Shown in pieces: positions 13,001-49,711 of a DNA stretch of 52,539 nucleotides. The translations under genes were made by a program, and so were the position numbers. The notes beneath the pieces were generated by a model, which saw only the letters and a program-made list of their open reading frames with translations, had not been told where the DNA came from and searched no databases. Within the stretch, counting starts at the first letter, position 1. Each line of letters starts with the position of its first letter. The stretch spans positions 1-52,539 of the IMG/VR virus record IMGVR_UViG_3300042691_014512; one strand, given 5' to 3'. The stretch comes from a virus.

Positions 13001-15370
13001 AATCCAGGAGGAATTGATTCGGATAACAGATGGATAATTAGAGGAAATAATTATAAATTAAATATACCAATAAATGGTAGTATCAATAACACAAGACACG
13101 TAGGTAATGTTGATGGTTTTGACCCAGCAACTAATCAATATTTATATTACCCATCCTATCACTATCAACCAACAATAGGTGGACAAAATGGTTTTATTTC
13201 TTTTAATTCTAAATTACCGAATTATTATTCTTTGTTAGATAAAAGTACACCAGGGCAATATTTAGCTAATTCAAGGGCTATGTGGGAAAGTTCTAATAAT
13301 AGTAGTACAGCCCCAATTATACCAATTATAAATCCTCCATTTTTAAAATTGATGAGAGATTATTCAGCTAGAAATTATACCGCAGATGGACTACCACCCA
13401 CAAACACTAGACGATTATTCAATGCTTTCCAAGTTGAATTTAGGGATATAACTAATCCACCAAATGAATTTAATCAAAGAGCGATATTAAATGGTGACCA
13501 AAAAATAAATATAGGACAATCTTGGAGAAGTCCAAATATATTTTATAGGTCATATTGGCCAAATCAAGTTGTTGAAGGTGGTACTTATATGAACCAAGTA
13601 CTTTGTTTGAATGGTGATGGTGCTTGTACTTTAGGTCCAAGTTTAGACCCTGATGATAATAAACCTAAAGGTGTATCATATTATTACGCACCATCTTATT
13701 TATTATATAATTCACCTTATGATTATAGTAATATGGTAAGTGCTGGAAGGATTGTTATGAGGTCTGACAGATTACCAACTTCAACATCTTATATTCAAGA
13801 TTTAGAAAATACATTCCCATTATTCTCAAATCCAAAGTTTACAGTTTATTTTGTTAATGATGACGAAACATCAGGAGTTGGAATATTTGGTACAAGTTCG
13901 GCTACAGAATTGGGAACACCAACATTTAGTAATTCTTTAGATACTTTAGATGACCAACCTTCAGGAATAACCATATTAAGTACTTTCACTTGTTCAGGTT
14001 TAGTACCTTTAGGTTGTTATGAAGGTAGTACGGGTGAAATTAATGTAAAACCTCAAACAGATACGTGTTATTATAATGGTATAAATGAAACACCAATTAT
14101 GGAAAATGGCTGTTATGTGTTAATAACAGTTCCAGTATTGACCTTACCTAGAGATATTCAATTACTAAATCAATGGACTAATAGATTACAAATAACATTT
14201 GCTGCCTGTAGAAATGTATGGTCACATATGTTCACAAATAATTGGATAAATGGAACATTGTATGCGTTTGCATTTAAAAATGACAGACGTTTTGATATTA
14301 ATAATCAACCTAAAAGTGTTTATTGTAAAGATACCATAATTTTACATCCGACTAATAATTTTTATTATAGAAGTAGTCCTTATTTTTCCGGTAATATAGG
14401 TTTACCTCCTAGATTTGTTGGTGCACCCCCACGTAATTCATTATATAAAGGTAACAAAAAAAATCTTAAATTTCCAACAACAATAATTGATTTAGGTCCA
14501 AAAACAAATTATACACAAGAGTTAGTTTTTTCAAATGAATTTGATGGATATGTTATGGATAGATTATCAGAAACAACATATAAAGATGTTTCAGAGATTC
14601 TAAATTTATTAATTATTAGTAGATTGGTAAATCTTAAATTCATTGAAGCTTTAGCTGGTACGGGTGGTGTTGGGGTTGGTAGTTATTTTGATAGTAGAAA
14701 TGATTATCTAGGATTTGTTGATGGTGATTATGCACAAATGATATCAATAAGTTCAGAATTAGGGGTTGTTGAATTTGAATCATCAAATTACCCACCAATA
14801 AATCCTGGACAAGACCCTATTTACTTCAATGACACTAATAGTAACAATGCTATTTTTGGTATATTTTTCTCATCAGATTCTCAAACAAGAGATTTCATAT
14901 CACCTAAACGAAATATTATTAATGAATTGGTTGACCCTAGTAATAATTGTGCATTTGACAATTTCTATGTTTATTCACAAGAAGTACCATTTTATCAATG
15001 GGAAATAAATACAAATCAGTATCCTAATATTTTTGGGTCTCAAAGTAATACTTGGTACACGGATACAATAAATAATGGAAGTTTCTTTTATAAAAAATAT
15101 CAATCATTGGATAGATTAGACGTTAGTTCAAGGTATTTTAGAACTAATACTAGTACATATAGTAGAGATGATAAAGGTTATATCTATTCATACGATAGTA
15201 CAACTAACGAATATAATCCAGATATAAATTCTTGGGAACAGAACTCACCTCAAGATAATAAAATTATTGTAGGTTCACCATTTTATTTTTATTTTGGATT
15301 AAAGAAAGGAAAAACAGCTTGGGATAGATTTATAAAAAAATGGATAAATTTTGAAAACATAACTGAATAA
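10064..15370 (+). CDS. very large baseplate/tail protein with internal membrane-like hairpin
   Basis: The 1768-residue protein follows gp25 and gp6, where T4 has gp7 (1032 residues), so a wedge role is likely by synteny only. Residues about 50-180 look like a carboxypeptidase-regulatory/transthyretin-type beta-sandwich (GVIVGRISINNGFGLPNCKV, then TNDSGDYMLFGVPLG). Residues about 488-530 are strongly hydrophobic (LIYLLFIILLYIARPILYLL, then LLAGVMAALFIPYW), enough for two membrane spans, followed by a Cys cluster PDCDLCNC. The remainder is Asn/Ser/Tyr-rich, beta-type and typical of tail fibres. A membrane hairpin in a virion protein is odd and might act on the host envelope. The next gene starts immediately after the stop. 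Confidence 0.8.
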   Translation: MSNSYRIRTQVGVDKSVKILLDQDFEQLEILSLKILSDQIYNRQCSDYGVIVGRISINNGFGLPNCKVSIFIPLSEQDENNPIISTLYPYKSLTSVNEDGYRYNLLPYTKSYSAHVPTGSFPDREDALVDNNVIEVYDKYYKFTTQTNDSGDYMLFGVPLGSQTIHVDIDLSDIGEFSLSPQDLIRMGVATESQVAGVSFKSSNNLNSLPQIVSFNRTINVDPFWGQPEVCSIGITRTDFDVSGEVNIEITPTAIFMGSIFSSSDEQFQKSNCKSKIKQGELCNLVAGAGEILALRQTISLDSQGLPILEQYDLESGGQVIDENGTWLVDVPMNLDYVFTNEFGDRVLSNDPTIGIPTKGKYRFKIKWNQSPKLSEPIKRAYFLVPNIREYGWDSSGNSDPFQVPNPDPNVFKSYAFSLDWNDYVDPQVAIDCEDYFYLMSYNKVYSVSQLIDQYRSGYLQNRIISIKNILDETCESDNVKFPTNDAAYRFDLIYLLFIILLYIARPILYLLLIVSHLLAGVMAALFIPYWRRIANLRLPNLSYPDCDLCNCKEGGEATGPTPSEFQVAVDTELLTNGYLTPLWSFSQYTKPGFTWENDGYAPDDIIVNINDPALGYNAAASKYLTFSEQLLVTGQPYNPGLPSPNTFAPQMQDIGNGKKIFTTSIPIFERLNLFNLKSAYFDGRIPKLWNDNGDRWYPDDNATNVRDSYNPWGGGNRIRVSFRPTLNGYPRTTLPINDWYNTGIYQPYHFDNVMLLMVRPEKLSEFTAGALVTFQSSELSTDPNITGSTTNQFGNNATIGITINQGNQSINVDWAKFDGSGNNTTTYQIDQGVDDAQYSKYPMDIEYFQVITGMTIGDIYGYNIADLQQDDCCYPNSGDPGTVNAPGSLRHALFTRINIVTVKTDNTFVPNNNSAEVGTYRISPALSFNNFAEQGLVFLVRGVDPYSTRGEVEYDLSGIINGSVINNRILGNLPDPLINPGGIDSDNRWIIRGNNYKLNIPINGSINNTRHVGNVDGFDPATNQYLYYPSYHYQPTIGGQNGFISFNSKLPNYYSLLDKSTPGQYLANSRAMWESSNNSSTAPIIPIINPPFLKLMRDYSARNYTADGLPPTNTRRLFNAFQVEFRDITNPPNEFNQRAILNGDQKINIGQSWRSPNIFYRSYWPNQVVEGGTYMNQVLCLNGDGACTLGPSLDPDDNKPKGVSYYYAPSYLLYNSPYDYSNMVSAGRIVMRSDRLPTSTSYIQDLENTFPLFSNPKFTVYFVNDDETSGVGIFGTSSATELGTPTFSNSLDTLDDQPSGITILSTFTCSGLVPLGCYEGSTGEINVKPQTDTCYYNGINETPIMENGCYVLITVPVLTLPRDIQLLNQWTNRLQITFAACRNVWSHMFTNNWINGTLYAFAFKNDRRFDINNQPKSVYCKDTIILHPTNNFYYRSSPYFSGNIGLPPRFVGAPPRNSLYKGNKKNLKFPTTIIDLGPKTNYTQELVFSNEFDGYVMDRLSETTYKDVSEILNLLIISRLVNLKFIEALAGTGGVGVGSYFDSRNDYLGFVDGDYAQMISISSELGVVEFESSNYPPINPGQDPIYFNDTNSNNAIFGIFFSSDSQTRDFISPKRNIINELVDPSNNCAFDNFYVYSQEVPFYQWEINTNQYPNIFGSQSNTWYTDTINNGSFFYKKYQSLDRLDVSSRYFRTNTSTYSRDDKGYIYSYDSTTNEYNPDINSWEQNSPQDNKIIVGSPFYFYFGLKKGKTAWDRFIKKWINFENITE

Positions 15371-17209
15371 ATGGGGAATATTAATGATACGAGAATAGTT
15401 TTAGGTTCTTTAAGATATAAGGGGTCACCAAATACAGATTTATCAATTCAACTTGGGTTAGAAGAAACACAAAAACAACAAGTTGAATATGATAGAACTC
15501 CTAATATAAATTTGGAACAAGTTTTTCAAGATGAAAGACAGGCTTCAAATAAATTTAGACCAACTTGTAAATTCTCAATAATATTCAAAAATGCTTATAG
15601 TGGTCAAACAATAGGTAATCCACCTTATCCACCATTTGAACAAAATTTATATTATCTTAACGCCCAAGAAACAGTAATTCAAAGGTGTAATCCAAATTCA
15701 AATTTTCCTTGGGGTGGATTCCCATTATATAATGAATTTGATTTTATTAGAAATGATTATAATGTATCAGGGTATACAATAACATCAGGTTCAACACCAC
15801 CTCATATTAATTTTGTAGCAAAGAGTGCATCAAGTTATAATTGGAATTTCTTTATAAGTTACGCGTTTGAAAATGACTACAATAAACAATTACAAGCTAT
15901 ATTCAAAGTTCCAAATGACCCCACACCACTTTATCCTACAGTAAATTGGACTGTAAGTGATGGAATTCCATTTGTGATTAAAAACTCAACTTATAATGGT
16001 AGGGACATAATTCAGTTTAGAAGTCCAATAAAACATGGGTTAAGTGTTGGAGAATTTTTTCAAGTTAGTTCTAATTTTAGATATACTGGTAGTAGTGTTA
16101 TTGATATTCATCAAGTTTATTCCTTGGGTGATGATACTTTTGGAAGTGATGAATATGTCTTTAATATTGTTAATATTGGATTCACAGGTTCAACATTTAA
16201 TGATGGTGGACAAGGAACTGCTAAAAGATTATTACTTAAAGATAATGTTACTGATACAATATCAAAATATTATATAAGAAGAAATAAAATATTAACAAAT
16301 ATTGATGATATTGTTGTAACAAAAACAGGATTTGAACAAACAGCTTTTAGAAATGTCAAAAAATATGAACCAGCAAATTTAACCCCAAATTTAACATCAA
16401 GAATTTCGGTTAAGGAAGGCTCACAAGCATATTCTGTTACAGTTAACAATATTTTGGATATTAATAATTTATTAGACAATCAAAAAAGACCAATATCTGA
16501 ACTTTTTTTCACGGTAATGTGGAAAGGATATTTTGGATGGACATTTGGGGTGAACGATTCTCAAACTAATAATTATTACCCAATGAAACAAGGATGGGGA
16601 TTTAATATTCCATCTGTTAATACTAATAATATACCAAATAATTGGTGGGATAATAATTTTTCATTATCAAATACGACATTTTTATTTACAGATTATCAAA
16701 GAATAGTAAACGGGAATCAATATAATTTTACTTATTTAGACTCATTACAAAAGGGTGATGAATTGGATGGTGATTTATGTGAATGGAATGATTTTGAACA
16801 AAAAGAGAGGGTTATATCTCGTGTTTATCATAAGATAAAATTCAATCCAAACTTATTTGATATTAATCAATCTTTGGAAACAACAAATTCAAATCAACGA
16901 GGATATTATTATAACCCATTACATTCTATGACTATAAGAGTATTTTCGGATTATATTGAGAATGGAGATAAAAGAACTGTTGAAAACATCCCTAATTATT
17001 CATATTTCACAACAACAAACGACCAATTTATTTGGCGAGATTTATATCCTTATGGGTATGTTGATAGTAGTGGATTAGGTGTTGATTATCCATTTTTAAA
17101 CGGTGTTCATTACCCTTATAATAATTTTATTTTTAGAATAATTCCAGAGGGAACTAATTATATTGAACAGACCATAACATCAGAACCAATAACAGACCCT
17201 TGTGAATAA
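15371..17209 (+). CDS. tail/baseplate structural protein, unidentified
   Basis: A 612-residue protein starting on the base after the previous stop, so translation is probably coupled. It is rich in Asn, Tyr, Phe and Gly, with many short beta-type segments (for example VNWTVSDGIPFVIKNSTYNG), a style common to phage baseplate and fibre proteins. I see no enzymatic motif, coiled coil or membrane segment. Position after the putative gp7-like gene might suggest a gp8-type wedge protein, but the length (T4 gp8 has 334) does not support that strongly. Confidence 0.75.
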   Translation: MGNINDTRIVLGSLRYKGSPNTDLSIQLGLEETQKQQVEYDRTPNINLEQVFQDERQASNKFRPTCKFSIIFKNAYSGQTIGNPPYPPFEQNLYYLNAQETVIQRCNPNSNFPWGGFPLYNEFDFIRNDYNVSGYTITSGSTPPHINFVAKSASSYNWNFFISYAFENDYNKQLQAIFKVPNDPTPLYPTVNWTVSDGIPFVIKNSTYNGRDIIQFRSPIKHGLSVGEFFQVSSNFRYTGSSVIDIHQVYSLGDDTFGSDEYVFNIVNIGFTGSTFNDGGQGTAKRLLLKDNVTDTISKYYIRRNKILTNIDDIVVTKTGFEQTAFRNVKKYEPANLTPNLTSRISVKEGSQAYSVTVNNILDINNLLDNQKRPISELFFTVMWKGYFGWTFGVNDSQTNNYYPMKQGWGFNIPSVNTNNIPNNWWDNNFSLSNTTFLFTDYQRIVNGNQYNFTYLDSLQKGDELDGDLCEWNDFEQKERVISRVYHKIKFNPNLFDINQSLETTNSNQRGYYYNPLHSMTIRVFSDYIENGDKRTVENIPNYSYFTTTNDQFIWRDLYPYGYVDSSGLGVDYPFLNGVHYPYNNFIFRIIPEGTNYIEQTITSEPITDPCE

Positions 17210-23100: not shown

Positions 23101-23493
23101 GATTCTAATCCTAACGTAACAACTTTTGGTTCTGTATTGGGTAATGTGTTAAATACATATTTGGCGACAAATGGAACATCTGTAGGTAATTGTGATTTAA
23201 ATAGCATGACAACTATATGGTATGTTGATTTACGTGTAAACAATACTACGATTGTTTCGTATCCATTCTTTAATGGAATTGGGTATAACATACCAACATT
23301 TAGTACACCAAGTGTTTCTGATTGGGATATAGCAATAATTGCCGCATTAGAAGAACTTAAGAATTATGGATATAATTATTATTTAACTGATAACGATACT
23401 GTGGTAGTTTATAGTGAATCTTGTTCAATTTCGGATTCAATAATAAACTTTAAAATAAATGTAGGAATAAATTTTCAAATATATTGTAGTTAA
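20164..23493 (+). CDS. large tail protein with P2 gpI-type (tail protein I) segment
   Basis: 1109 residues. Around residues 441-475 the run [20 protein letters not shown] matches the conserved core of the tail protein I family, a baseplate component of contractile tails and contractile injection systems. The flanking region ([32 protein letters not shown]) also fits that family. The second half has Cys pairs ([29 protein letters not shown]) and beta-rich repeats suited to a fibre-attachment or host-contact extension. It is fused to a much longer C-terminus than the roughly 200-residue classical gpI. Starts and ends with one-base overlaps to its neighbours. Confidence 0.75.
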
Positions 23494-26400
23494 TGGCTTG
23501 TGAATTAAATGTTTTTTTAAGTGGTATAACTGGTGATTGTTCAAATACTAGCAGTGGTTCATTTGGGATTACTATTGAGGGTGATGCTCCAGATTATACA
23601 ATTCAATGGATTAGTCCGACAACAGGAACTACAGTATTAGGACCTGGTGTTACAGGTTATACTGAAAGTAGTTTATCTGCTGGAACATATACTTTTAATG
23701 TTATTGATAGTTGTTTATCAGGCAACACATATTTCTTAATGAATGTTAATATTTCATCAGGTACTTGTGTTTCCATTCAGTCAAGAAATACTTCGTGTGG
23801 ATTTAATAATGGCGTAATAACAGCAACAACTCAAAATTTATATGCACCATCAACACATTATTTATATGAAAATACAATTGGATTTATAACTTCAGGAACT
23901 AGTGGAATTAATAGTATAGTATTTGGTTCACTTTCAGCTGGAACATATTATGTAATTTCTGATGATGGTGGTGGGTGTACTGGTAAAAGTGAAAGTTGTA
24001 TAATTAAACCATCAAGTTCATTTACATATGGGTTATATCAAGTAAATAATTCCCCATGTTTTATTAATACTGGTGCATTATATATAACTGGTTTAACTGG
24101 AACTCCTCCATATACTTATTTATGGTCAAATGGTGGAACTGGACAATCAATTACTGGATTAAGTAATGGATTTTATAGTGTTTTAGTTACAGATGGAATT
24201 GGTTGTAATACTGCGGCTTCAGCCACTATTGAATCAGTACCAGCATTGAGTTCTTTAATTTTAATTGATAGTGAGCCATCTTGTTACACTTCTGATGGTG
24301 TTGTGACAGTTTATATTTCAGGAGGTACTGCACCTTATCATATTGAGGGTTCAAACGGAGAAGTTGTTATAACATTTGACACTTCTTATACATTCACTGG
24401 ATTACCATCAGGTAATTTTTCAGTTACGGTGACTGATGCTGGTTTATGTCAATCAACATCAACAACAACATTACAAACCCCTAGTGGAATTTCATTAGTT
24501 ACTGTTGATATTACAAATTCAACATGTAATAATAATGGAGGTGAAATTAATGTGACTATATTTGGGGGTAGTGCTCCATATATTTACACATTGACTGATT
24601 CATTATCAAATACGAGTACTTTCCTACAACCAATACAAAATGGTGGGGCAGTCTTCAATGGATTAAGTTCAGGTAATTACTTGTTGACCATTACAGATAG
24701 TTTAGGAATATGTCCTTATTCACAAACATATACAATAAATAATAACATATTATATACTCTTAGTGTGTCAGCCACAGGTACAACTTGTGGAAATGATGAT
24801 GGTTCAGTAACCTTATCTATAACTACTGGAGGAACGGCACCATATACATATCAAATTAATGGACAAAGTGTTATTTCTAATTCTTTATCATATACTTTTA
24901 CTAATTTACCATCAGGAAGTTATACTGCTTCAGTAACTGATGTTAACTTATGTCAACAAATATTACCATTTACGATTAATAGTTCGAGTGGTGTTAATTT
25001 CATTTTAAACGGAACAAATCCTATTGGTAATAATGGGATAATAGAAACTTTTATAACTAGTGGTGAACCACCATTTACGTTAAATTGGAGTTCAAATGTG
25101 GGATTGCAAACAGGATTAACAATAACAAATTTATCAGCAGGAACATATTCATTAACTATTACCGATTCATTTGGTTGTAGTCAAACTAGAACGATAACTT
25201 TATTGGGTTATAATTTATTTTCATCATATGAAATATATAATATTTGTGATGATGATTTTAACAATTCAGGTCAAATAGTTAAGAAAGGGTTAAAACAGAT
25301 GTTAATTGAAGGATTTTTTGATTTAACATCTGGTGACACTAATTGTATTCTTAATTCCGCATCTTTTGAATCTGTTGTAAATGTTAATGGAGTTATACAA
25401 ACTGATATCTTTTATGTAAGTAGTGGGATAACTGATTATCCTACAGATACTACTTTATTTGATTCTGTTGAAACATTATTATTAACATATCCTAATATTG
25501 ACTCCGTTACTATTGACCCTGTGAGTGGTGATTTAAAGATAACAACAATTTGTAATCCACCGATTTCTATTGTGGATGCAACAGTTATAATTGATGTAAA
25601 AATTTATTATGATATTAGTTGTGAAGTATGTTCTACACCAGTTTTAGCTCCGTTTATATTTACAGTTGACACAACTAAATTATCTGCAGGTTCAAGTTTA
25701 GTTGACCAATTCCAATTACCTACAGTATCAGGAGGATATTATGATTTTGATGTTGATTGGGGTGATGGAAATTCTGATGTTATAACAACTTGGAATGATT
25801 CAAATACTTTACATACATATACCGCAACTGGTATTTATCAAATTACTATTAATGGTCAATTTAGTGGATTTTCATTCAATAACAGCGGAGACGTTGCTAA
25901 AATTTCATCTATTGAACAATGGGGTATATTAGAATTAGGAGATTCACCAGGCCATTTCTATGGTTGTAATAATTTGGTATTAACTGGAGTTACTGACTTT
26001 ATTAATTTATCAACGACATCAATATTGGAGGATACCTTTAGGGATTGTACATCATTAACAACAATCAATAATGTTGAATATTGGGACACATCAAATGTTG
26101 TTAGTATGAGTGGTATGTTTTACTATGTTCCATCATTCAATCAAGATATTGGTTTATGGGATGTTTCGAATGTTACTGATATGAGTGATATGTTTTTTGA
26201 TGCGACATCATTTAACCAAGATATTGGTTCTTGGAATGTTTCAAATGTTATTAGTATGAGTGGCATGTTTCACTATGCGACATCATTCAATCAAGATATT
26301 GGTTTATGGAATGTTTCGAATGTTACTGATATGAGTGATATGTTTTTTGATGCGACATCATTTAACCAAGATATTGGTTTATGGAATGTATCAAATGTTA

Positions 26401-26912
26401 CTGATATGTCATTTATGTTTACTAACTCACAATTTAACCAAGATATTGGTTTATGGAATGTTTCAAATGTTACTGATATGAGAGCTATGTTTTACAATGC
26501 GACATCATTCAATCAAGATATTGGTTTATGGAATGTTTCGAATGTTACTGATATGTCATTAATGTTTTTCAATACGACATCATTTAACCAAGATATTGGT
26601 TTATGGAATGTATCAAATGTTACTGTTATGACTCAAATGTTCAATAACGCAATAATTTTTAATCAAGATATTAGTAATTGGAATGTATCTAACGTTACTG
26701 ATATGATATCAATGTTAGATAATTGTGGAATGAATCAAAGTAAATATGAAGCATTATTAGTTAATTGGAATCTATTACCATCATTACAACTTAATGTGAA
26801 TTTTGGTGTGAATGGAAGACAATATCAAATAGGAAGTCCTAGTGATATTGCAAGGTCAAATATTATTGGAACTTACTCTTGGACATTTATCGGAGACACC
26901 GCAGTACCATAA
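23493..26912 (+). CDS. adhesin-like tail protein: SprB-type repeats, PKD, DUF285/BspA-like repeats
   Basis: 1139 residues, last gene of the tail block. Residues 1-570 hold about seven SprB-like units, each with Cys, a GG-APYTY core and an L(S/P)(A/S)GTYT-VTD-C ending. A unique part begins at about 571. A PKD-like fold ([23 protein letters not shown]) lies near 752. Residues about 850-1080 consist of DUF285 (BspA-like) repeats of the form [16 protein letters not shown]. SprB is the mobile gliding adhesin of Flavobacterium and DUF285 repeats occur in bacterial surface adhesins, so the phage protein probably binds or mimics host surface molecules (inference). No signal peptide. Followed by a bidirectional terminator. 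Confidence 0.85.
26136..26732 (+). repeat. eight tandem 75-bp repeats encoding FNQDI units
   Basis: Units begin at 26136, 26211, 26286, 26361, 26433, 26508, 26583 and 26658. The period is 75 bases except for one 72-base unit. Each encodes about 25 residues starting FNQDI. Neighbouring units are very similar at DNA level, in places identical over more than 50 bases, so recombination can change copy number without breaking the frame. Confidence 0.95.
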
Positions 26913-39765: not shown

Positions 39766-39973
39766 CACGGAAAAGAGTTTACCAAAGATTGATTTGAGAG
39801 AACAACCCACCATTACTTGTGAAGAGTGTGGTTCAAAATATTTTAAAGAAGTGGTTATGGTTAAAAAGGTATCAAAACTATTGACAGGTAGTTTGGAAGA
39901 CACATTAGTACCATTCCCAACATATCGTTGTGATGATTGTGGTCACATAAATAAAGATTTTGAATTGTTCTAA
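39749..39973 (+). CDS. small zinc-ribbon protein
   Basis: 74 residues with two CxxC knuckles: TCEECGSKYF and RCDDCGHINK, 42 residues apart, forming a likely zinc ribbon. Such small proteins in T4-like phages are often transcription or replication accessories, but the partner here is unknown. The stop overlaps the next ATG by one base (TAATG). Confidence 0.75.
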   Translation: MDNLINTEKSLPKIDLREQPTITCEECGSKYFKEVVMVKKVSKLLTGSLEDTLVPFPTYRCDDCGHINKDFELF

Positions 39974-40425
39974 TGAAAAAGATTCACATTAATAATGATG
40001 ATAATTATGCAACTCCTCCAGAATTTTATGAGGAGTTAAACAAGAGGTTTAAATTTGATTTTGACCCTTGTCCATATAATGAAAAGGATGTTGATATTGA
40101 TGGTTTAAATATTGAATGGGGGATGTCAAATTTCATAAATCCCCCATATAGTCAGAAGTTAAAGGAGGCCTTTATTAAGAAAGGGATTGAGGAGATGAAG
40201 AAGGGAAAAGTTTGTGTATTTTTGATACCAGTTTCCACCTCCACAAAGTTATTTCACGATTATATTAAACCAAATGCGACTGAAATTGAATTTGTAAGGG
40301 GGAGGATTAAATTTGGGAAAGTTGACAATGATGGTAATTTTTATTATCCTGTAAATTCAAAGGGTAAAGTACAAAGTGGTACAAAAGATAGTATGATTGT
40401 TGTATTTGATGGAAGAAAAAAATAA
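39973..40425 (+). CDS. dam: phage DNA N6-adenine methyltransferase (Dam type)
   Basis: 150 residues of the compact phage Dam family. The N-terminus NYATPPEFYEELNKRFKFDF with DPCPYN is characteristic, and the catalytic NPPYS lies at 56-60. VCVFLIPVSTSTKLFHDYI and EFVRGRIKFG are conserved later elements. Likely methylates adenine in phage DNA to evade restriction. The last 37 bases of the gene, with the following gap, are copied at 41045-41093, which marks it as the left boundary of a rearranged region. Confidence 0.9.
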   Translation: MKKIHINNDDNYATPPEFYEELNKRFKFDFDPCPYNEKDVDIDGLNIEWGMSNFINPPYSQKLKEAFIKKGIEEMKKGKVCVFLIPVSTSTKLFHDYIKPNATEIEFVRGRIKFGKVDNDGNFYYPVNSKGKVQSGTKDSMIVVFDGRKK

Positions 40426-40437
40426 ATAAAATGGAAA
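40389..40437 (+). repeat. 49-bp direct repeat, first copy
   Basis: Covers the 3' end of the Dam gene, the 5-base gap and the start of the next gene. Identical to 41045-41093 (offset 656 bases). Confidence 0.95.
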
Positions 40438-40976
40438 TAAATAATTTAAGTAAAGAAGAACTTGTTAGATTAAAACAAGAAGTTGATGATAGATTGAAAA
40501 CTATTGAGGTTAAAGAAACAAAACCAAAGAAAGGAACTATACTATCGTTAAAACAAGGTGATAAGATTTTTGGTATTAGATTGTCGTTTGGTGCCCATAG
40601 ATTAAAAGAACCAAATGAATTAAATGGGGAAGTAGATATAATTGATTATTGTAATATTGAGGGATTATCTTTAAAAGACAAAAGTGATAATTTCTCAATT
40701 AGTATATCACATCCGACAAGAGCATTTGGCATATCTACAACTTTAAGAAAAGAAGATTATATTGATGAACACTGTTATTTATGTATTGACTTAATGAAAA
40801 CTGGTTATGATGGCTTTTACACATTAAAACCTAAGACTTGGAAAGAAGATTTAATTAGAATGTTAAGTAAAAACATAGAAGATAGGAAAAAATACTTTCA
40901 ACAAGATTTAGAAATACTTGAAAGTAAATTGAATTTATTTATTCAATCAGAAGATAAAATTAAAAAATATATTTAA
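40431..40976 (+). CDS. unknown protein with N-terminal segment reused downstream
   Basis: 181 residues. It begins MEINNLSKEELVRLKQE, and the same 17 residues start the 62-residue product at 41323. The middle has KQGDKIFGIRLSFGAHRLKE and later SIEDRKK-type helices, ending with a coiled-coil-like stretch (KYFQQDLEILESKLNLFIQS). No family recognised. The presence of a duplicated 5' end shows it was the donor or recipient in local rearrangement. Confidence 0.7.
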   Translation: MEINNLSKEELVRLKQEVDDRLKTIEVKETKPKKGTILSLKQGDKIFGIRLSFGAHRLKEPNELNGEVDIIDYCNIEGLSLKDKSDNFSISISHPTRAFGISTTLRKEDYIDEHCYLCIDLMKTGYDGFYTLKPKTWKEDLIRMLSKNIEDRKKYFQQDLEILESKLNLFIQSEDKIKKYI

Positions 40977-41000
40977 GTGTGTGGGAATAAAATCACACAT

Positions 41001-41046
41001 AACAAAAACTGAAATGATAAAAACAATCTGTCACTTCTCAGATTTA
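41001..41046 (+). repeat. copy of the 5' end of the gp47-like gene
   Basis: 44 of 46 bases match 43351-43396, which covers the leader and first 11 codons of the metallophosphoesterase gene. Here the copy runs straight into the Dam-end repeat and cannot make a working enzyme. It is a recombination relic. A short inverted repeat (GTGTG ... CACAC) precedes it at about 40979-40998. Confidence 0.92.
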
Positions 41047-41093
41047 GTATGATTGTTGTATTTGATGGAAGAAAAAAATAAATAAAATGGAAA
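41045..41093 (+). repeat. 49-bp direct repeat, second copy (Dam 3' end)
   Basis: Identical to 40389-40437. It supplies the leader and ATG for the 76-residue gene that follows, as the original does for the 181-residue gene. Confidence 0.95.
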
Positions 41094-41317
41094 AGAAAAA
41101 CAGATTAGTATCAATTGGATATATTGGAATAATGAAATGTTATTTGAATATATCAGACAGGGAAGCGACACAAAGATATATTAAATCAGAAAATATGTCG
41201 GAAACACAATTTGAATTAGATAATGATATTCAATTTCACGTTATAGAATTTGATGATGAATTCGGTGCGTATAGCGTGTGGGAATCTACACCCACCTCTA
41301 AATCCCCAAATAATTAA
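41087..41317 (+). CDS. small unknown protein
   Basis: 76 residues, acidic C-terminal half (LDNDIQFHVIEFDDEFGAYS). The N-terminus contains IGYIGIMKCYLNISDREATQ, which reads like a short alpha/beta domain. Its start codon and leader come from the 49-bp duplicated segment. No function recognised. Confidence 0.6.
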   Translation: MEKKNRLVSIGYIGIMKCYLNISDREATQRYIKSENMSETQFELDNDIQFHVIEFDDEFGAYSVWESTPTSKSPNN

Positions 41318-41374
41318 ATAAAATGGAAATAAATAATTTAAGTAAAGAAGAACTTGTTAGATTAAAACAAGAAG
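41315..41374 (+). repeat. 60-bp direct repeat of 40423-40482
   Basis: Identical to the leader and first 17 codons of the 181-residue gene (offset 892 bases). It creates the start of the 62-residue hybrid gene. Confidence 0.95.
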
Positions 41375-41511
41375 CTGAAAACACAGATAAAAAATTACAT
41401 ATATCTGATGTTATATGCAGTTGCAAAAATAACTCTGCCTGTACATCAGAAGAAGATGGTAATGGTGAATGGAAAGATTATTGTTGGAAATGTAAATGTT
41501 TTCGTAATTGA
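41323..41511 (+). CDS. small hybrid protein (duplicated N-terminus plus ISDV module)
   Basis: 62 residues. The first 17 residues copy the 181-residue protein. The next part (NTDKKLHISDVICS) matches the 43028 product, whose DNA is alike over 42 bases with 3 mismatches. The end is Cys-rich (CSCKNNSACTSEEDG, YCWKCKC), possibly binding zinc. It is evidently an assembly of duplicated pieces; whether it is functional is uncertain. Confidence 0.55.
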   Translation: MEINNLSKEELVRLKQEAENTDKKLHISDVICSCKNNSACTSEEDGNGEWKDYCWKCKCFRN

Positions 41512-41513
41512 AT

Positions 41514-41570
41514 ATAACGATACTCAGATATAACCAGTTTAGGAATTGAAATACAAAACGTAAAAATATG
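41514..41570 (+). repeat. intergenic repeat, first copy
   Basis: Begins ATAACGATACTCAGATATA and ends just at the next ATG. The same start and end sequences occur at 42970-43030, also directly before a gene encoding an ISDV module. It may carry a shared promoter or recombination point. Confidence 0.85.
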
Positions 41571-41876
41571 ATAAAAAGATTATTAGAAAAACTGAACTTG
41601 ATTAAACCACAGAAACCTAAATTGGTTATATCTGATGTTATAATCAGTACGGATAAATTGACGGAATATCAATTGGAAATACGAACTCGTTTAAGAGAAA
41701 AATTTAATGACTTACAGATTGAAATCGTTAGGGGTGATAGATTAATGGTAAATGGAGTTATTATAACGGGTGGTGTTTTAATTTGGGATTCAAGAAACCG
41801 TAAAGATTATGAGAACGACATTAAATTTTTCTCTGATGAAATAAAACTTCAATATTTAGATAAAAAGAAGTATTGA
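41568..41876 (+). CDS. small unknown protein of the ISDV set
   Basis: 102 residues. Contains LVISDVIISTDK, a third version of the ISDV peptide seen in the 41323 and 43028 products. The rest (EIRTRLREKFNDLQIEIVRG, then LMVNGVIITGGVLIWDSRNR) reads as an alpha/beta domain. The stop codon is followed directly by an attC-like hairpin. No function recognised. Confidence 0.65.
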   Translation: MIKRLLEKLNLIKPQKPKLVISDVIISTDKLTEYQLEIRTRLREKFNDLQIEIVRGDRLMVNGVIITGGVLIWDSRNRKDYENDIKFFSDEIKLQYLDKKKY

Positions 41877-41877
41877 T

Positions 41878-41972
41878 TATAATGGTTGAGTGTATGAGTA
41901 GTGTAGTTTTGCACATACTTTCAACTTTACAGATAAACTTATTTAGCCACATTACTTATACACTTTGTTATG
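41878..41972 (+). repeat. attC-like imperfect hairpin A
   Basis: The left arm reads ATAATGGTTG then AGTGTATGAGTAGTGT (41889-41904). The right arm reads ACATTACTTATACACT (41949-41964) then TTGTTATG. The inner stem is 16 base pairs with two G-T pairs, the outer stem 5 pairs, with unequal unpaired spacers between them and a 44-base loop. The two-stem plan with AAC-like and GTT ends and a start after a stop codon resembles integron attC sites. The right end overlaps the next gene's ATG. Confidence 0.7.
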
Positions 41973-42119
41973 AACAGTAAAAAAAGAATTATACCAAATG
42001 TTCCTAAAGAGGAACGAGTTAGTTTTGAATATGGTTATCATAAAATACCAAATTGGATGTTAATATCGTTTGGTATAATTGTATTTGTTGGGATTGTGTG
42101 TTGGGTTTATTGTTCATAA
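41970..42119 (+). CDS. small single-pass membrane protein
   Basis: 49 residues with a basic N-terminus (MNSKKRIIPNVPKEERVS) and one transmembrane helix (WMLISFGIIVFVGIVCWVY) close to the C-terminus. Its ATG lies within the GTTATG end of hairpin A, and its TAA lies within CATAACG. The gene is therefore framed exactly by the repeated ends, like an integron cassette. Function unknown. Confidence 0.6.
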   Translation: MNSKKRIIPNVPKEERVSFEYGYHKIPNWMLISFGIIVFVGIVCWVYCS

Positions 42120-42146
42120 CGTTCACAAATATAAACAGTTATTATG
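42115..42146 (+). repeat. short cassette boundary, CATAACG...GTTATT
   Basis: CATAACGTTCACAAATA followed by CAGTTATTATG. The left part matches CATAACGGTTCGCAAATA at 42683-42700 apart from one indel and one substitution. ATAAC and GTTAT could pair as a minimal stem. It spans the stop of the membrane-protein gene and the start of the zinc-ribbon gene. Confidence 0.6.
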
Positions 42147-42317
42147 GAACACGAATTAGAATGTCCGAAATGTAATTATAAATTCTTCATAAGTGAGGAT
42201 TACCAAGTTGGCGATTGTCCAGATTGCGGTAAAACTCATTATTACTGGGATTATGTTTTGGATGAAGAAACTTATGAAGAATTTTTTAGTGGGTATTATT
42301 GGGAGGATAACGAATAA
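42144..42317 (+). CDS. small zinc-ribbon protein
   Basis: 57 residues. CPKCNYKF and CPDCGKTHYY form two CxxC knuckles, 15 residues apart, followed by a very acidic and aromatic tail (YEEFFSGYYWEDNE). Short rubredoxin-like ribbons of this kind are common in phages and of unknown role. Boundaries are set by the ATAACG/GTTATG type repeats on both sides. Confidence 0.65.
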   Translation: MEHELECPKCNYKFFISEDYQVGDCPDCGKTHYYWDYVLDEETYEEFFSGYYWEDNE

Positions 42318-42332
42318 TTGTTTATATTTGTT

Positions 42333-42361
42333 GTTATGTTCTCGTTTTAATGGAACATAAC
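42333..42361 (+). repeat. perfect hairpin with TCGTTTTAATG loop
   Basis: GTTATGTTC and GAACATAAC form a perfect 9-base-pair stem around the loop TCGTTTTAATG. The right arm is shared with the next hairpin. No T-run follows, so it is not a typical terminator. Confidence 0.85.
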
Positions 42362-42407
42362 GGTTGAGTGTAAAAAATCGTTTTAATGTTTTTTACACTT
42401 TGTTATG
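42356..42407 (+). repeat. attC-like hairpin B with the same loop
   Basis: CATAAC / GTTATG (6 pairs) encloses an unequal internal loop GGTTG / TT and a perfect 11-pair stem AGTGTAAAAAA / TTTTTTACACT. The 11-base loop TCGTTTTAATG is identical to that of the preceding hairpin. Its outer arms and GGTTGAGTGTA / TACACTTTGTTATG flanks match hairpin A closely, though the inner stems and loops differ in length. This is the clearest member of the attC-like set. Confidence 0.8.
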
Positions 42408-42444
42408 TTTTAGGTTTTATTTTTTAACGATTAAATTAAATAAC

Positions 42445-42681
42445 ATGATACAAATAGGAACAATATGTATTTCAGAACCGACAATACCTTCTGAATACGA
42501 TATGGCAAGACATTCACTTTTTATAATGGAAAGTAATGTTCATAGAATGAAATATATGATGGAACTTGGATACTTCTGTAATGAGTATTCAGAAGAAGAG
42601 TGGCAAAAATTTAAGAAGGTTGAAATACTATTGAGAAATAGACATTCAAATGTGGAATACCACACAAAAAATAAAACTTAA
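42445..42681 (+). CDS. small unknown protein
   Basis: 78 residues from the ATG at 42445. A longer frame opens upstream at 42364 but would run through hairpin B and lacks coding character, so the internal ATG is preferred. The middle is Met-rich (MARHSLFIMESNVHRMKYMM) and the end basic. No family recognised. The stop is followed by ACATAACGGTT, as at other boundaries here. Confidence 0.6.
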   Translation: MIQIGTICISEPTIPSEYDMARHSLFIMESNVHRMKYMMELGYFCNEYSEEEWQKFKKVEILLRNRHSNVEYHTKNKT

Positions 42682-42682
42682 A

Positions 42683-42714
42683 CATAACGGTTCGCAAATA
42701 AATCCAGTAGCCAT
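42683..42714 (+). repeat. cassette boundary CATAACGGTTC
   Basis: CATAACGGTTCGCAAATA lies 1 base after the TAA of the 78-residue gene and shares CATAACGGTT with hairpin B and most of its length with 42115-42131. No matching right arm is evident before the next ATG at 42715, so it may be a decayed site. Confidence 0.55.
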
Positions 42715-42972
42715 ATGAATATGAACATAGTTGAAATAACAGAAAAACTTTATAAACAAGAAATAAACCCGAATGAAGCAGAACGCTTGCTATTGGATTT
42801 ATTTGCTGTTAGCGGTTCGTTGCCTTCTAAGGATGAAGTAATAGGTAAAGGGTTTAATAACGCTAATGGCAGTGAATATAATAGAAGGAATGTGCTTCGA
42901 GATACTGATGATGATTTGTATTATACTGGATGGATGGATTGTTTTGATTGGTTGTCAAGTAATGACCGTTAA
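42715..42972 (+). CDS. small unknown protein
   Basis: 85 residues; a second ATG at 42721 is equally possible. The N-terminus is helical and acidic (VEITEKLYKQEINPNEAERL) and the C-terminus is Asp/Trp-rich (TDDDLYYTGWMDCFDWLSSN). No recognised family. The TAA stop forms part of GTTAACGATACTCAG, the repeated intergenic segment. Confidence 0.6.
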   Translation: MNMNIVEITEKLYKQEINPNEAERLLLDLFAVSGSLPSKDEVIGKGFNNANGSEYNRRNVLRDTDDDLYYTGWMDCFDWLSSNDR

Positions 42973-43030
42973 CGATACTCAGATATATGTAGTTTTTTCT
43001 TAATTTGAAACACAAAACTTAAATAATATG
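42970..43030 (+). repeat. intergenic repeat, second copy
   Basis: The first 18 bases (TAACGATACTCAGATATA) are identical to 41515-41532, and the last 25 or so (TTGAAACACAAAACTTAAAT) match 41547-41570 with few changes. The middle differs. It again leads into an ISDV-type gene. Confidence 0.85.
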
Positions 43031-43267
43031 GATAAAGATAATAAGAACGAAAATGTTGATAACACAGATAAAAAATTGCATATATCTGATGTTATGTGTA
43101 GTGATTTCGAAAAGGAATTAGTTAGACACAATTTTTATATAACGTTAATTCACAAAGAATTGATGAAAGGTGTAATTACTAAAGAAGAATTTATAAATAA
43201 ACAAGAGGAAGATATAAAAATGACTTCTAAAATTCTTGGTGATATTGTTAGAAATCATTACACATAA
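43028..43267 (+). CDS. small unknown protein with ISDV module
   Basis: 79 residues. NTDKKLHISDVMCSD is nearly the same as in the 41323 product, and the DNA matches over 42 bases (43061-43102 against 41380-41421, 3 mismatches). The rest is helical and charged (LIHKELMKGVITKEEFINKQ). The TAA is within ACATAACTAG. The 96 bases to the gp47-like gene contain AAATCCCCAAATAAT, also present near 41300, and no gene. Confidence 0.6.
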   Translation: MDKDNKNENVDNTDKKLHISDVMCSDFEKELVRHNFYITLIHKELMKGVITKEEFINKQEEDIKMTSKILGDIVRNHYT

Positions 43268-43363
43268 CTAGAATATATCAACACCTATTTTAAATCCCCA
43301 AATAATCAATGATTTAAGAGGTAAAAATGGGAAACTATTACGAAATTCAAAACAAAAACTGAA

Positions 43364-44140
43364 ATGATAAAAACAATCTGTCACTTCTCTGACTTACATT
43401 TGAGATTAATAAAAGACCACGATTTATACAAATCAATATTGATTGATATGTTTAATCAATTCAAAGATATTAAACCTGATAGAATTGTCTTCAGCGGGGA
43501 CTTAGTTCATAGTAAAAACCAAGTCAGTCCAGAACTTATTGAAATGGTTAGATGGACATTAGATGAATGTTCCAAGATTGCAAAAACAATAATCATTGTT
43601 GGAAATCATGATATGCTTGAGAACAATTTATCAAGATTGGATACATTAACCCCCATCATTGAATCAATGAATAATGATAACATTGTCTATTACAAAGATA
43701 GAGGTGTATATGTTGATGAGAATATTGATTGGGTTGTATATTCTTTATTTGAACACAATATTCCCCCAACAATTGAGAAATCTAATAACATTAAAATTGG
43801 ATTGTTTCACGGGCCTATTATAGGGTTATATACAGACATTGGATATAAGTTTGAAACAGGGTATGAGGTGAGTAAATTTGAGGGATGTGATATCGTTCTA
43901 TGCGGAGATATACACAAGCGTCAAATTATTTATTTGGATAAAACTCCAATAATTCAAGTAGGTTCAACAATCCAACAGAACTATGGGGAAAGTATCAAGA
44001 AACACGGATTTGGAATTTATGATGTTGTTAAGGATGAATATTCATTTGTTGATTTGGATAATCCAAAACCTTTTCTTAAATTTGCAATAAATTCATTTGA
44101 AGATATAATTGATGGAAAAGAAAAACTATTGAACTTTTAA
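43364..44140 (+). CDS. recombination nuclease, T4 gp47 / SbcD-like metallophosphoesterase
   Basis: 258 residues. The dinuclear-metal phosphoesterase motifs are complete: SDLHL (Asp10, His12), FSGDLVHS (Asp46), VGNHD (Asn81, His82), GLFHGP (His149) and CGDIHKRQ (181-184). In T4 gp47 works with the ATPase gp46 to resect ends for recombination-dependent replication; gp46 is not next to it here. It is shorter than T4 gp47 (339), lacking much of the C-terminal capping region. The leader and first codons are duplicated at 41001-41046, and a 19-bp piece of its 3' end at 44706-44724. Confidence 0.88.
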   Translation: MIKTICHFSDLHLRLIKDHDLYKSILIDMFNQFKDIKPDRIVFSGDLVHSKNQVSPELIEMVRWTLDECSKIAKTIIIVGNHDMLENNLSRLDTLTPIIESMNNDNIVYYKDRGVYVDENIDWVVYSLFEHNIPPTIEKSNNIKIGLFHGPIIGLYTDIGYKFETGYEVSKFEGCDIVLCGDIHKRQIIYLDKTPIIQVGSTIQQNYGESIKKHGFGIYDVVKDEYSFVDLDNPKPFLKFAINSFEDIIDGKEKLLNF

Positions 44141-47808: not shown

Positions 47809-48146
47809 TAATATTAATTTGGTTATTAACGGCGTACGGAATGTCAAATATATTAGTTTATGGGTCAATATTTCAGGGAGTGAGAAATGGAATAAAAGAG
47901 TGGGGTAATTCACGATTACCTTTAAATGTGTTAGGAAAATTCTTTGGGGATTTACTATCTTGTATGATGTGTACATCAACTTGGGTTGGTTTTTTCCTAT
48001 CAATTTTTTATTATTCACCTTCAGCTTCATTAATAGGAACATCACTATGGTTTAGTTGGTTCTTTGATGGTATTTTATCATCAGGAGCTGTATGGGCAAT
48101 CAATGCGATTGTTGAATATTATGAAGAAAATAGACCATCTAAATGA
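47805..48146 (+). CDS. multi-pass membrane protein, DUF1360-like
   Basis: 113 residues with about three hydrophobic segments (IILIWLLTAYGMSNILVY; STWVGFFLSIFYY; IGTSLWFSWFFDGIL). LLSCMMCTSTWVGFFLS is the Cys-x-x-Cys motif of the DUF1360-like family found in bacteria and phages. The role is unknown; an inner-membrane accessory or superinfection function is conceivable. It overlaps genes on both sides by 4 bases. Confidence 0.7.
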   Translation: MIILIWLLTAYGMSNILVYGSIFQGVRNGIKEWGNSRLPLNVLGKFFGDLLSCMMCTSTWVGFFLSIFYYSPSASLIGTSLWFSWFFDGILSSGAVWAINAIVEYYEENRPSK

Positions 48147-49711
48147 AAAAAGTTTTAGAGTTATTTGCTGGTAGTCGTTCTATTGGTAAAGCCGCAGAAT
48201 CACTTGGAATGGAAGTATTTTCAGTTGATTGGGAACAATATGAGGGGATAAATTTATCAAAAGATATTGGTGAATTAACAATGGAAGATGTTCCATTCAC
48301 CCCTGATATTGTTTGGGCTTCACCAGATTGTACAACATATACAATTGCTGCAATATCACACCACAGAAACGGAACTGAACCCAAAAGTGAATATGCAAAA
48401 AAATGTGATATGGTTAATCAACATTTTATTTCATTGATAAAACAATGGTTAACCATTAATCCAAATATGGTATTCTTTATTGAAAATCCAAGGGGTATGT
48501 TAAGAAAGATGCCTTGGATGTTAGAATTCACAAGACATACAATATGGTATTGTTTTGCTGGGGAAACTGAAGTAATCACTAAACTTGGTTCACAAAAATT
48601 TAGTGACATTGTAAATACAACACAATCTTTACTAATGAAAGATGGTACTTGGAAAGACGCACCAATAAGACATTATGGTAAACAACAAATATATAAGTTA
48701 ACTCTCAGTAGAGCAGGGATGACTAAAGTAATTAGAACAACTAAAAACCATAAATGGATTATCCGATTACCAAATAAACGAGAAGTTATTGTAAATACAA
48801 TTGATTTAAAAACAAAAGACATTATACCATCAATATATGGGAAACATATATTTGAATTTATGGAAAACGAAGGAATTACTAGAGGATTTGTATTTGGTGA
48901 TGGATATGCGAACTATAAGGGAAAAAGAATACCCTATGATTCAGCTGCACAATTTTGTGGAGCTAAAGATGAAGAAATGGTAAAATATTTTGATAATATG
49001 GGTAGAAGTAGACGTAAAAATAAAGGACATTTAAACATTCATGGATTACCATTTGAATGGAAGACTGAAATCCCAAATATTTTTGATTATAGTTCAAATT
49101 ATATATATGGATGGTTAGCTGGATATTTTGCGGCTGATGGTACAGTTGGTAAAAATGGACAAGTTGTTATGTATTCGGCAAAAAGAAAAAATATTGAGGC
49201 ATTCAAGAATTTATGTCAGACAATAGGTATTGGTACTTATGAAATTAGAGAATGGAGTAGAAAGGGATTTGGAAAAGAAGAAACTATTTTATATAGTTTA
49301 GGGTTAATAAGAACTACGCTTCCAAGTGAGTTTTTCTTACTAAAACATCATAGAAATAATAATTTTATACCTAAATTTGAACCATATTGGTCTGTTGTTT
49401 CTGTTGAAGTTGAAGATAAATATGAAGATGTTTATTGTACTGAAGTCGAAGGTTACGAATCTTTTGTTTTGGATGGAAACATATTAACTCACAATTGCAA
49501 ATATGGTGATGAAAGAGCCAAACCAACTGATATATGGACAAATAGTACAACTTGGATACCAAGACCTGTTTGCAAGAATGGTAATACGGAATGTCATCAC
49601 CAACCAGCACCAAGGGGAAGTAAAACTGGAACTCAAGGTAGAAAAGGAAGTTATGAAAGAAGTAAAATACCTGAACAACTTTGTAATGAAATATTAACAT
49701 CAACATTATGA
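48143..49711 (+). CDS. cytosine methyltransferase precursor interrupted by an intein
   Basis: 522 residues; after splicing the host protein would be 207 residues. Extein part 1 has the AdoMet motif LELFAGSRSIGKAA, the PxC-type site ASPDCTTYTIAA (Cys63, SPDC rather than the usual PPC) and FFIENPRGML. The intein occupies residues 137-451. Extein part 2 resumes with CKYGDERAKPTDIWTN, which continues the host sequence RHTIWY as in phage cytosine methyltransferases. It ends with a 4-base overlap into a second methyltransferase. The unusual SPDC motif might alter activity or mean a related non-DNA substrate. Confidence 0.88.
   Translation: MKKVLELFAGSRSIGKAAESLGMEVFSVDWEQYEGINLSKDIGELTMEDVPFTPDIVWASPDCTTYTIAAISHHRNGTEPKSEYAKKCDMVNQHFISLIKQWLTINPNMVFFIENPRGMLRKMPWMLEFTRHTIWYCFAGETEVITKLGSQKFSDIVNTTQSLLMKDGTWKDAPIRHYGKQQIYKLTLSRAGMTKVIRTTKNHKWIIRLPNKREVIVNTIDLKTKDIIPSIYGKHIFEFMENEGITRGFVFGDGYANYKGKRIPYDSAAQFCGAKDEEMVKYFDNMGRSRRKNKGHLNIHGLPFEWKTEIPNIFDYSSNYIYGWLAGYFAADGTVGKNGQVVMYSAKRKNIEAFKNLCQTIGIGTYEIREWSRKGFGKEETILYSLGLIRTTLPSEFFLLKHHRNNNFIPKFEPYWSVVSVEVEDKYEDVYCTEVEGYESFVLDGNILTHNCKYGDERAKPTDIWTNSTTWIPRPVCKNGNTECHHQPAPRGSKTGTQGRKGSYERSKIPEQLCNEILTSTL
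48551..49495 (+). other. intein with LAGLIDADG homing endonuclease domain
   Basis: 315 residues (137-451 of the precursor). It starts with Cys in CFAGETEVITKLG (block A). Block B is RTTKNHKWII. Two endonuclease motifs are visible, GFVFGDGYANYKG and WLAGYFAADGTV, each with an acidic residue. The end is EVEGYESFVLDGNILTHN, followed by Cys as the +1 residue. All splicing residues (Cys1, block B His, terminal His-Asn, Cys+1) and both DOD motifs are intact, so splicing and homing are likely active. Confidence 0.92.

Follow-up and report, generated by a model that had tools for sequence, protein, structure and literature searches.

A recombinase-less array in a T4-like phage genome probably belongs to a phage-borne, integron-like cassette platform

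Integrons have so far been known as bacterial devices run by the recombinase IntI. In the described IntI systems (class 1, Vibrio and the chromosomal integrons of Bacteroidota), the recombinase gene is transcribed away from an adjoining attI site, and tiny, mostly unknown genes lie in cassettes on the other side of attI, bounded by attC hairpins with R''/R' boxes ending in AAC and starting with GTT, an asymmetric unpaired spacer and a cut at AA/C (equal to G/TT on the other strand; the slash marks the cut). Clusters of attC sites lacking integron-integrases (CALINs) and their recombination by IntI1 have also been published for virulent phages (TJE1, PH101 and P12002L; Qi et al. 2023, PMC9892861); for P12002L, that report mentions attC sites in divergent directions, whereas neither a phage-specific recombinase with its own attI nor an inverted polarity was described. 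Here we compare these systems with an attC-like array that ends at an attI-like site (41512-43290, + strand, six small open reading frames (ORFs) in six cassettes) in the IMG/VR record IMGVR_UViG_3300042691_014512. The window, meaning the whole analysed stretch of 52,539 bases, is an incomplete virus genome with a T4-like gene set and, like the published phages, holds its attC array without an integrase.

Our comparison favors the reading, at a probability of about 0.84, that the window array is the recombinase-less array of a phage-borne cassette platform, integron-like in operation yet distinct from IntI integrons. Comparison among related sequences shows the platform's architecture, its exchange points, the sharing of identical cassettes and the conservation of pairing despite changing stems, while the linked recombinase probably carries out the exchange and the window array is probably served in trans. 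An earlier note on this DNA, made from the letters alone, had called such an array in a lytic phage very unusual, a view that the 2023 report overtakes. What is new, as far as the open-access literature goes (subscription papers and preprints excluded), is the phage platform with its own recombinase and attI: there, none of the reports we found describes a phage recombinase with an attI of its own, inverted cassettes or bulge-less attC sites. The features of the locus are as follows.

41323-41517, + strand: left-end partial unit with ORF 41323-41511 (62 aa)
41512-41643, + strand: attC-like hairpin A, cut box ATATAAC, inner box GTTATAA
41518-41882, + strand: cassette 1, from AA/C to AA/T, ORF 41568-41876 (102 aa)
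41877-41972, + strand: attC-like hairpin B, degenerate cut box TTATAAT; the inner box GTTATG contains the start codon of ORF 41970
41883-42119, + strand: cassette 2, ORF 41970-42119 (49 aa) with one hydrophobic helix; its stop codon overlaps the next box
42114-42338, + strand: attC-like hairpin C, arms 42125-42143 and 42313-42331, with the whole zinc-ribbon ORF in the loop
42120-42360, + strand: cassette 3, ORF 42144-42317 (57 aa), a zinc ribbon
42355-42408, + strand: attC-like hairpin D, perfect 11-bp inner stem, loop TCGTTTTAATG
42361-42687, + strand: cassette 4, ORF 42445-42681 (78 aa)
42682-42813, + strand: attC-like hairpin E, boxes CATAAC and GTTAGC
42688-42972, + strand: cassette 5, ORF 42715-42972 (85 aa); its stop codon overlaps the next box
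42967-43096, + strand: attC-like hairpin F, boxes GTTAAC and GTTATG, N-terminal tag ...NTDKKLHISDV
42973-43267, + strand: cassette 6 (attI-proximal), ORF 43028-43267 (79 aa); its stop codon overlaps the attI core
43261-43290, + strand: attI-like site, CACATAAC/TAGAATATATCAACACCTA, the sole strict motif match in the window, with no recombinase adjoining
39975-43363, + strand: whole insert relative to empty-site relatives, comprising the methyltransferase 39973-40425, ORF 40431-40976, ORF 41087-41317, the array and attI

The six array ORFs are short and mutually unrelated, and all of them terminate at or just before an (A/C)TAAC-type box. The boxes, described in the earlier note as ATAACG or CATAAC after each gene, number seven, have the form T(T/G)(G/A)nnn(A/C)TAAC, and start their AAC or AAT at 41516, 41881 (AAT, degenerate), 42118, 42359, 42686, 42971 and 43266. 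A T stands eight bases 5' of AAC in 7/7 boxes (background for TAAC in the window, 0.28), and in each of the six hairpins such a box makes up the left arm of an inverted repeat, with GTTAT(G/A) or GTTAGC ending the right one. The two hairpins reported earlier, B and D, both exist and their likeness to integron attC sites holds; the attI-like site and four larger hairpins had been missed, the latter because their loops contain an ORF start (those of cassettes 1, 5 and 6 in A, E and F, respectively) or a whole ORF (C). Folded as + strand DNA, hairpins A, C, D, E and F gave z-scores of -4.9 (41510-41645), -4.2 (42113-42341), -4.5 (42355-42408), -3.7 (42681-42815) and -2.2 (42965-43099), respectively, and hairpin B (41872-41974) gave only -1.2 as DNA; a site homologous to hairpin B with 78% identity occurs in LR756500 (L001:3214-3311). 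The two highest attC-like scores across the 52.5-kb window, 23.3 for hairpin A and 21.2 for hairpin D, both fall inside the array. With six sites in 1.7 kb, the window agrees with the description of phage CALINs as at least two nearby attC sites without an integrase, and an Rfam scan of the window gave no match. The array extends leftward to about 41323 and rightward to the attI-like site, where it reads CACATAACTAGAATATATCAACACCTA at 43261-43290.

Related loci connect this array to a recombinase. An exact 17-base piece of site F matched 21 IMG/VR stretches, in about 18 of which the ~130-nt site recurs, complete or as its right half, and is followed by different ORFs, and a tyrosine recombinase of ~266 aa adjoins the array in six of these 18 contigs. 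A scan with the enzymes of these six contigs found 95 relatives in IMG/VR, 80 of which were kept as loci L030-L109. Sites were detected with our own structural scanner, which also recovers classical attC sites of Vibrio and Shewanella; across the 80 loci, sites scoring at least 19 lie upstream of the recombinase on its own strand, with 28-42 of them in each 500-bp stretch of the final 1.5 kb, as against 8 downstream in all bins together and far fewer on the minus strand. Markov-shuffled sequence from related loci (0.49 Mb) contained no site at a score of 20 or more. The motif ATAACTA(T/G)nATATAT is located 45-105 nt before the recombinase start in 77/80 loci, in a search that imposed the core AAC and TATAT and left the position free, and the motif closing the window array is the one preceding the recombinase in these loci. 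LR756500 carries a similar attI-like site at L001:8079.

The comparison named beforehand as able to refute a cassette array was whether relatives gain or lose genes at the box positions, and relatives indeed gain, lose and exchange genes exactly at the boxes (AA/C, or G/TT on the other strand). On the recombinase side, pairs of contigs reach 96-100% identity, and their similarity then breaks off completely at most 1-4 nt from the attI core TAAC; examples are L033/L034 (99.8% over 8,853 bp), L075/L078 (99.98% over 8,851 bp) and L037/L041 (100% over 2,651 bp), and L081/L083, L035/L038 and further pairs behave likewise. The window itself is 96.9% identical to its sister L110 over 864 bp from 43264, and the attI-proximal cassettes of the two differ; that of L110 corresponds to an internal cassette of the recombinase-bearing L070 (98.2%), and the zinc-ribbon cassette 3 of the window corresponds to the attI-proximal cassette of the recombinase-bearing L034 (93.5%). 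Cassettes common to otherwise different phages have TAAC at both ends, as seen for a 315-nt segment in L054/L081 (100%) and for 960 nt in L047/L052 (99.9%), which adjoins attI in one phage and is internal in the other. At internal positions, 15 of 25 homology ends fall within 6 nt of TAAC (control 8-10%), whereas 2/25 lie near GTTA, which is the control level (7-10%). Site-specific gain and loss of cassettes at attI and attC, a feature of integrons, is found here, and the breakpoints indicate that the crossover is at the left box AA/C (G/TT on the other strand), not at the inner GTTATG.

Because the crossover lies at the left box, the cassette reads C-hairpin-ORF-yATAA, which puts each hairpin on the 5' side of its ORF; the placement of attC just after its gene, as first proposed, has to be given up, each hairpin belonging to the following ORF. 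This polarity also explains the recurrent N-terminal tag ...NTDKKLHISDV, since the tag is encoded by the cassette's own attC. A candidate arrangement in which attC-encoded tags would be fused to ORFs across the crossover was dropped, as the breakpoints put the crossover on the other side of the hairpin and leave tag and ORF in one cassette. We compared 168 distinct attC-like sites of related phages with 13 classical sites from IntI loci. The T eight bases before AAC is present in 159/168 phage sites. The cut side carries the longer unpaired spacer in 148/168 phage and 11/13 classical sites; the phage sites have R''/R' boxes, an L stem and asymmetric unpaired spacers of mostly 5/2, and boxes and asymmetry are as in classical sites once turned around. 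A G directly follows AAC in 154/168 sites, and a conserved G is described beside the cut box on the classical attC bottom strand (PMC2727003). When flipped, the phage boxes match chromosomal Bacteroidota attC sites (ATAACAA ... CGTTATG). Spacer asymmetry, the G after AAC and the flipped box match are three independent features that agree on the polarity. The longest ORF points toward attI in 129/146 cassettes and away from it in 6, such that reading the opposite strand yields the classical order recombinase-attI-cassette-attC with the ORF pointing toward attI. By comparison with classical sites, which are bulged in 10/13 cases, the stem is perfect with no bulge on the expected side in 145/168 phage sites, a count somewhat biased by a scanner that penalises bulges, though bulged classical sites are recovered.

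The hairpins themselves appear to be under selection, as pairing is kept while stem sequences change. The loop TCGTTTTAATG is common to 89 distinct sites; their stem positions 1-11 are paired in 84-100% of the sites, by 2-5 pair types, compared with 48-98% pairing for shuffled partners. In the arrays of L030-L109, there are 88 copies of this 11-nt loop on the array strand, none on the opposite strand and one downstream, on varying stems, and in the window it is found at 42342-42352 and 42378-42388.

The linked phage recombinase is, as far as sequence and a predicted fold can tell, not an IntI but of Xer type. It scores 154-158 bits against the integron-integrase model TIGR02249 (cut-off 265), in two broken stretches, and its best NCBIfam model is XerA (NF040815), with 195, 186 and 167 bits, also below the cut-off (220). 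The IntI-specific insert of the catalytic domain, described as essential for integron function (PMC8138268), is missing: query residues 178-209 span what is IntI4 180-259 in VchIntIA (PDB 2a3v), ~48 residues fewer. The predicted model (predicted local distance difference test, 86.6; predicted template modelling score, 0.60) matches XerA structures first and 2a3v next. XerA and other simple tyrosine recombinases of Xer type (PDB 4a8e, 5hxy; NF040815) thus give the best full-length sequence and fold matches and share the two-domain build, whereas the phage enzyme falls below the curated cut-off, is phage-borne and is linked to cassette arrays rather than to a dif site. In a 67-row tree, IntI forms its own clade (99/95) with the phage enzymes outside, and these group with attI-bearing bacterial relatives at 98/93 including one distant row and at 81/49 without it. 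INPHARED held no record with an enzyme closer than 42% to the recombinase clade.

Three homologues from bacteria (52-56% identity) and one from a prophage carry the attI motif, and more distant homologues do not; the bacterial relatives clearly bearing it are L190, L191, L192 and G124, the G124 copy lying in a prophage with a terminase. A sample of 395 genomes of the phylum gave nine matches to the recombinase profile, seven of which were set aside with the attI motif not clearly in place, and one of these seven, L265, shows a similar motif. Judging from the bacterial relatives of the recombinase, the phages probably infect Bacteroidota. Separately, the L291 prophage carries three identical reverse-transcriptase/maturase-like ORFs (426 aa) at 11181-16928, beside the cassette recombinase.

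A full platform in related phages consists of an attI-like site, a ~266-aa Xer-type recombinase transcribed away from it, and a cassette array on the other side of attI. Each cassette (C-attC hairpin-ORF-yATAA) brings, with the attC 5' of its ORF, a leader, often a start codon and sometimes an N-terminal tag; new cassettes enter at attI, the junction in the TAAC core falling between AA and C, so the newest cassette adjoins attI. The substrate is probably a folded single strand in ORF sense, equivalent to the bottom strand of classical attC. Candidates for serving the window array in trans are a recombinase elsewhere in the incomplete genome, a co-infecting or resident phage, or a host IntI. 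For IntI, extrahelical bases decide strand choice, and sites without them keep a polarity set by the unpaired spacer (PMC2727003); since the spacer can set polarity in IntI systems, joint loss of extrahelical bases and of the protein insert is mechanistically consistent. More broadly, we consider it rather probable that Bacteroidota phages own an integron-like system, with an Xer-derived recombinase clade distinct from IntI, its own attI, attC sites without extrahelical bases, turned-around cassettes whose hairpin serves as 5' leader (start codon or N-terminal tag), exchange between phages, and service of recombinase-less arrays in trans.

Several observations weigh against the platform reading. 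A PF00589 search found no tyrosine recombinase in the window, as the earlier note had said of an integrase, and there is none in the 462-kb LR756500 despite the same kind of array. Hairpin B is the weakest of the six and its cut box is mutated (AAT), the scanner bias noted above touches the no-bulge count, and a host IntI of Bacteroidota could also move phage attC sites. The last point leads to the explanation that the window array is a CALIN taken from a chromosomal integron of Bacteroidota, with the IntI of the host alone moving it, as in the 2023 virulent-phage CALINs. The classical boxes ATAACAA/CGTTATG are common to Bacteroidota IntI arrays, of 296 genomes sampled from the phylum of Sunxiuqinia (Bacteroidota), 84 carry a true IntI, attC sites of virulent phages are substrates of IntI1 (PMC9892861), and one attC type is alike in a bacterial genome (L292:7435) and LR756500. 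However, the phage sites differ from those of IntI integrons in lacking extrahelical bases, in lying 5' of the ORF and in ORFs that point toward attI, inverted relative to chromosomal IntI cassettes; arrays in ~80 contigs adjoin a distinct recombinase, without the IntI insert and grouping outside IntI, with its own attI; and an exact search for window-type attC sites found them in phage contigs and none in ~85,000 bacterial genomes. Capture from a host, one of the two origins proposed at the outset, is therefore improbable as the main story, and maintenance by another recombinase, the second, fits best, with the ~266-aa non-IntI enzyme and attI adjoining related arrays.

The platform could also work by a different reaction, in which Xer-like recombination of double-stranded DNA takes place at the TTGnnnATAAC arm (11 bp) and its spacer, leaving the hairpin a role in expression or strand opening and none in recombination. 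Such a reaction is possible since the nearest solved relatives include ordinary Xer enzymes acting on double-stranded DNA; furthermore, the T at -8 is conserved in attI and cassette ends without being mirrored at the inner box, the nearest enzymes are of XerA type, and the insert by which IntI reads extrahelical bases is missing. By contrast, long conserved inverted arms with covariation and attC-like spacer asymmetry are not needed by a double-stranded Xer site, and attI and attC are unlike in their right parts, so that we regard this variant as a minority possibility, to be taken seriously but doubtful. Ordinary phage mosaicism, in which the hairpins would be terminators or promoters and genes would be exchanged by homologous or illegitimate recombination at short repeats, is very improbable. 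The hairpins do overlap expression signals (TAnnTTTG in 18 sites, start codons in 58/154) and short repeats flank the insert, but breakpoints at most 1-4 nt from a single 4-base core in phages that are ~100% identical elsewhere, sites that are strictly polar and tied to the recombinase and attI, and pairing kept over differing stem sequences all speak against it.

If the platform reading is true, cassette capture would not be unique to IntI, and the platform would let lytic and jumbo phages rapidly exchange small accessory (possibly anti-defence) genes. The joint absence of extrahelical bases and of the protein insert reading them would provide a natural experiment on the attC features that a recombinase requires, and the origin of integrons from Xer-like enzymes would become directly testable.

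The insert that contains the array has defined ends. At the empty locus of L120/L122, the gene ending at 39974 directly abuts an SbcD-like gene starting at 43364, giving an insert of 3.39 kb flanked by short repeats. At the left end of the array, the first ~17 codons of ORF 41323-41511 copy the start of ORF 40431 (repeats D1/D2); the right half of a window-type attC follows (L'/R' 41392-41412, no left arm), and then a Cys-rich tail, and this unit shares the tag 'TDKKLHISDV' with cassette 6 and ~15 other phage contigs. Other duplicated pieces lie at the left end of the insert, with 40998-41046 copying the start of the SbcD-like gene (43348-43396, 94%), 41046-41087 copying the end of ORF 39973-40425, and the sequence from 41323 on (41323-41372) copying the start of ORF 40431; these may be scars of off-target insertion or rearrangement. 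Window relatives also hold a second attI-like site (ATAACTAGAATATATACGTAAGTCGCC; L110:4730-5050 and L120 around 13707), preceded in L110 by one attC cassette, with no A1-type recombinase in the stretch of L110 that was examined.

Expression signals and cassette functions were surveyed as well. The sequence TAnnTTTG matches in 25/168 sites, 18 of the matches ending at one and the same place, 2 nt short of the inner box, and 58/154 have start codons in hairpin loops or arms; as a general promoter feature TAnnTTTG was rejected (1.4 versus 0.96 per kb overall), being suggestive in no more than a subset of sites. Scans of 85 cassette proteins against Pfam, PADLOC and PHROGs gave few matches (zinc ribbons, Lar-like restriction alleviation, SET), and given so few functional matches an anti-defence role of the cassettes is not established.

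An unusual long attC-like site (GGTATGGTTAGT...GATTGCGGGC...) is alike in the jumbo phage LR756500 (L001:5471-5600) and a bacterial genome (L292:7435-7564), a likeness hinting at cassette exchange between phage and host. Elsewhere in the window, a DNA cytosine methyltransferase ORF (48143-49711) has an intein-like insert at about residues 137-455 ('CFAGETEVIT...VLDGNILTHN'); the near-identical L110 matches 48028-48552 and 49494-49701 as adjacent segments and therefore is without this insert. Finally, 23493-26912 encodes a very long tail-region protein with tandem repeats of 17 protein letters (not shown).

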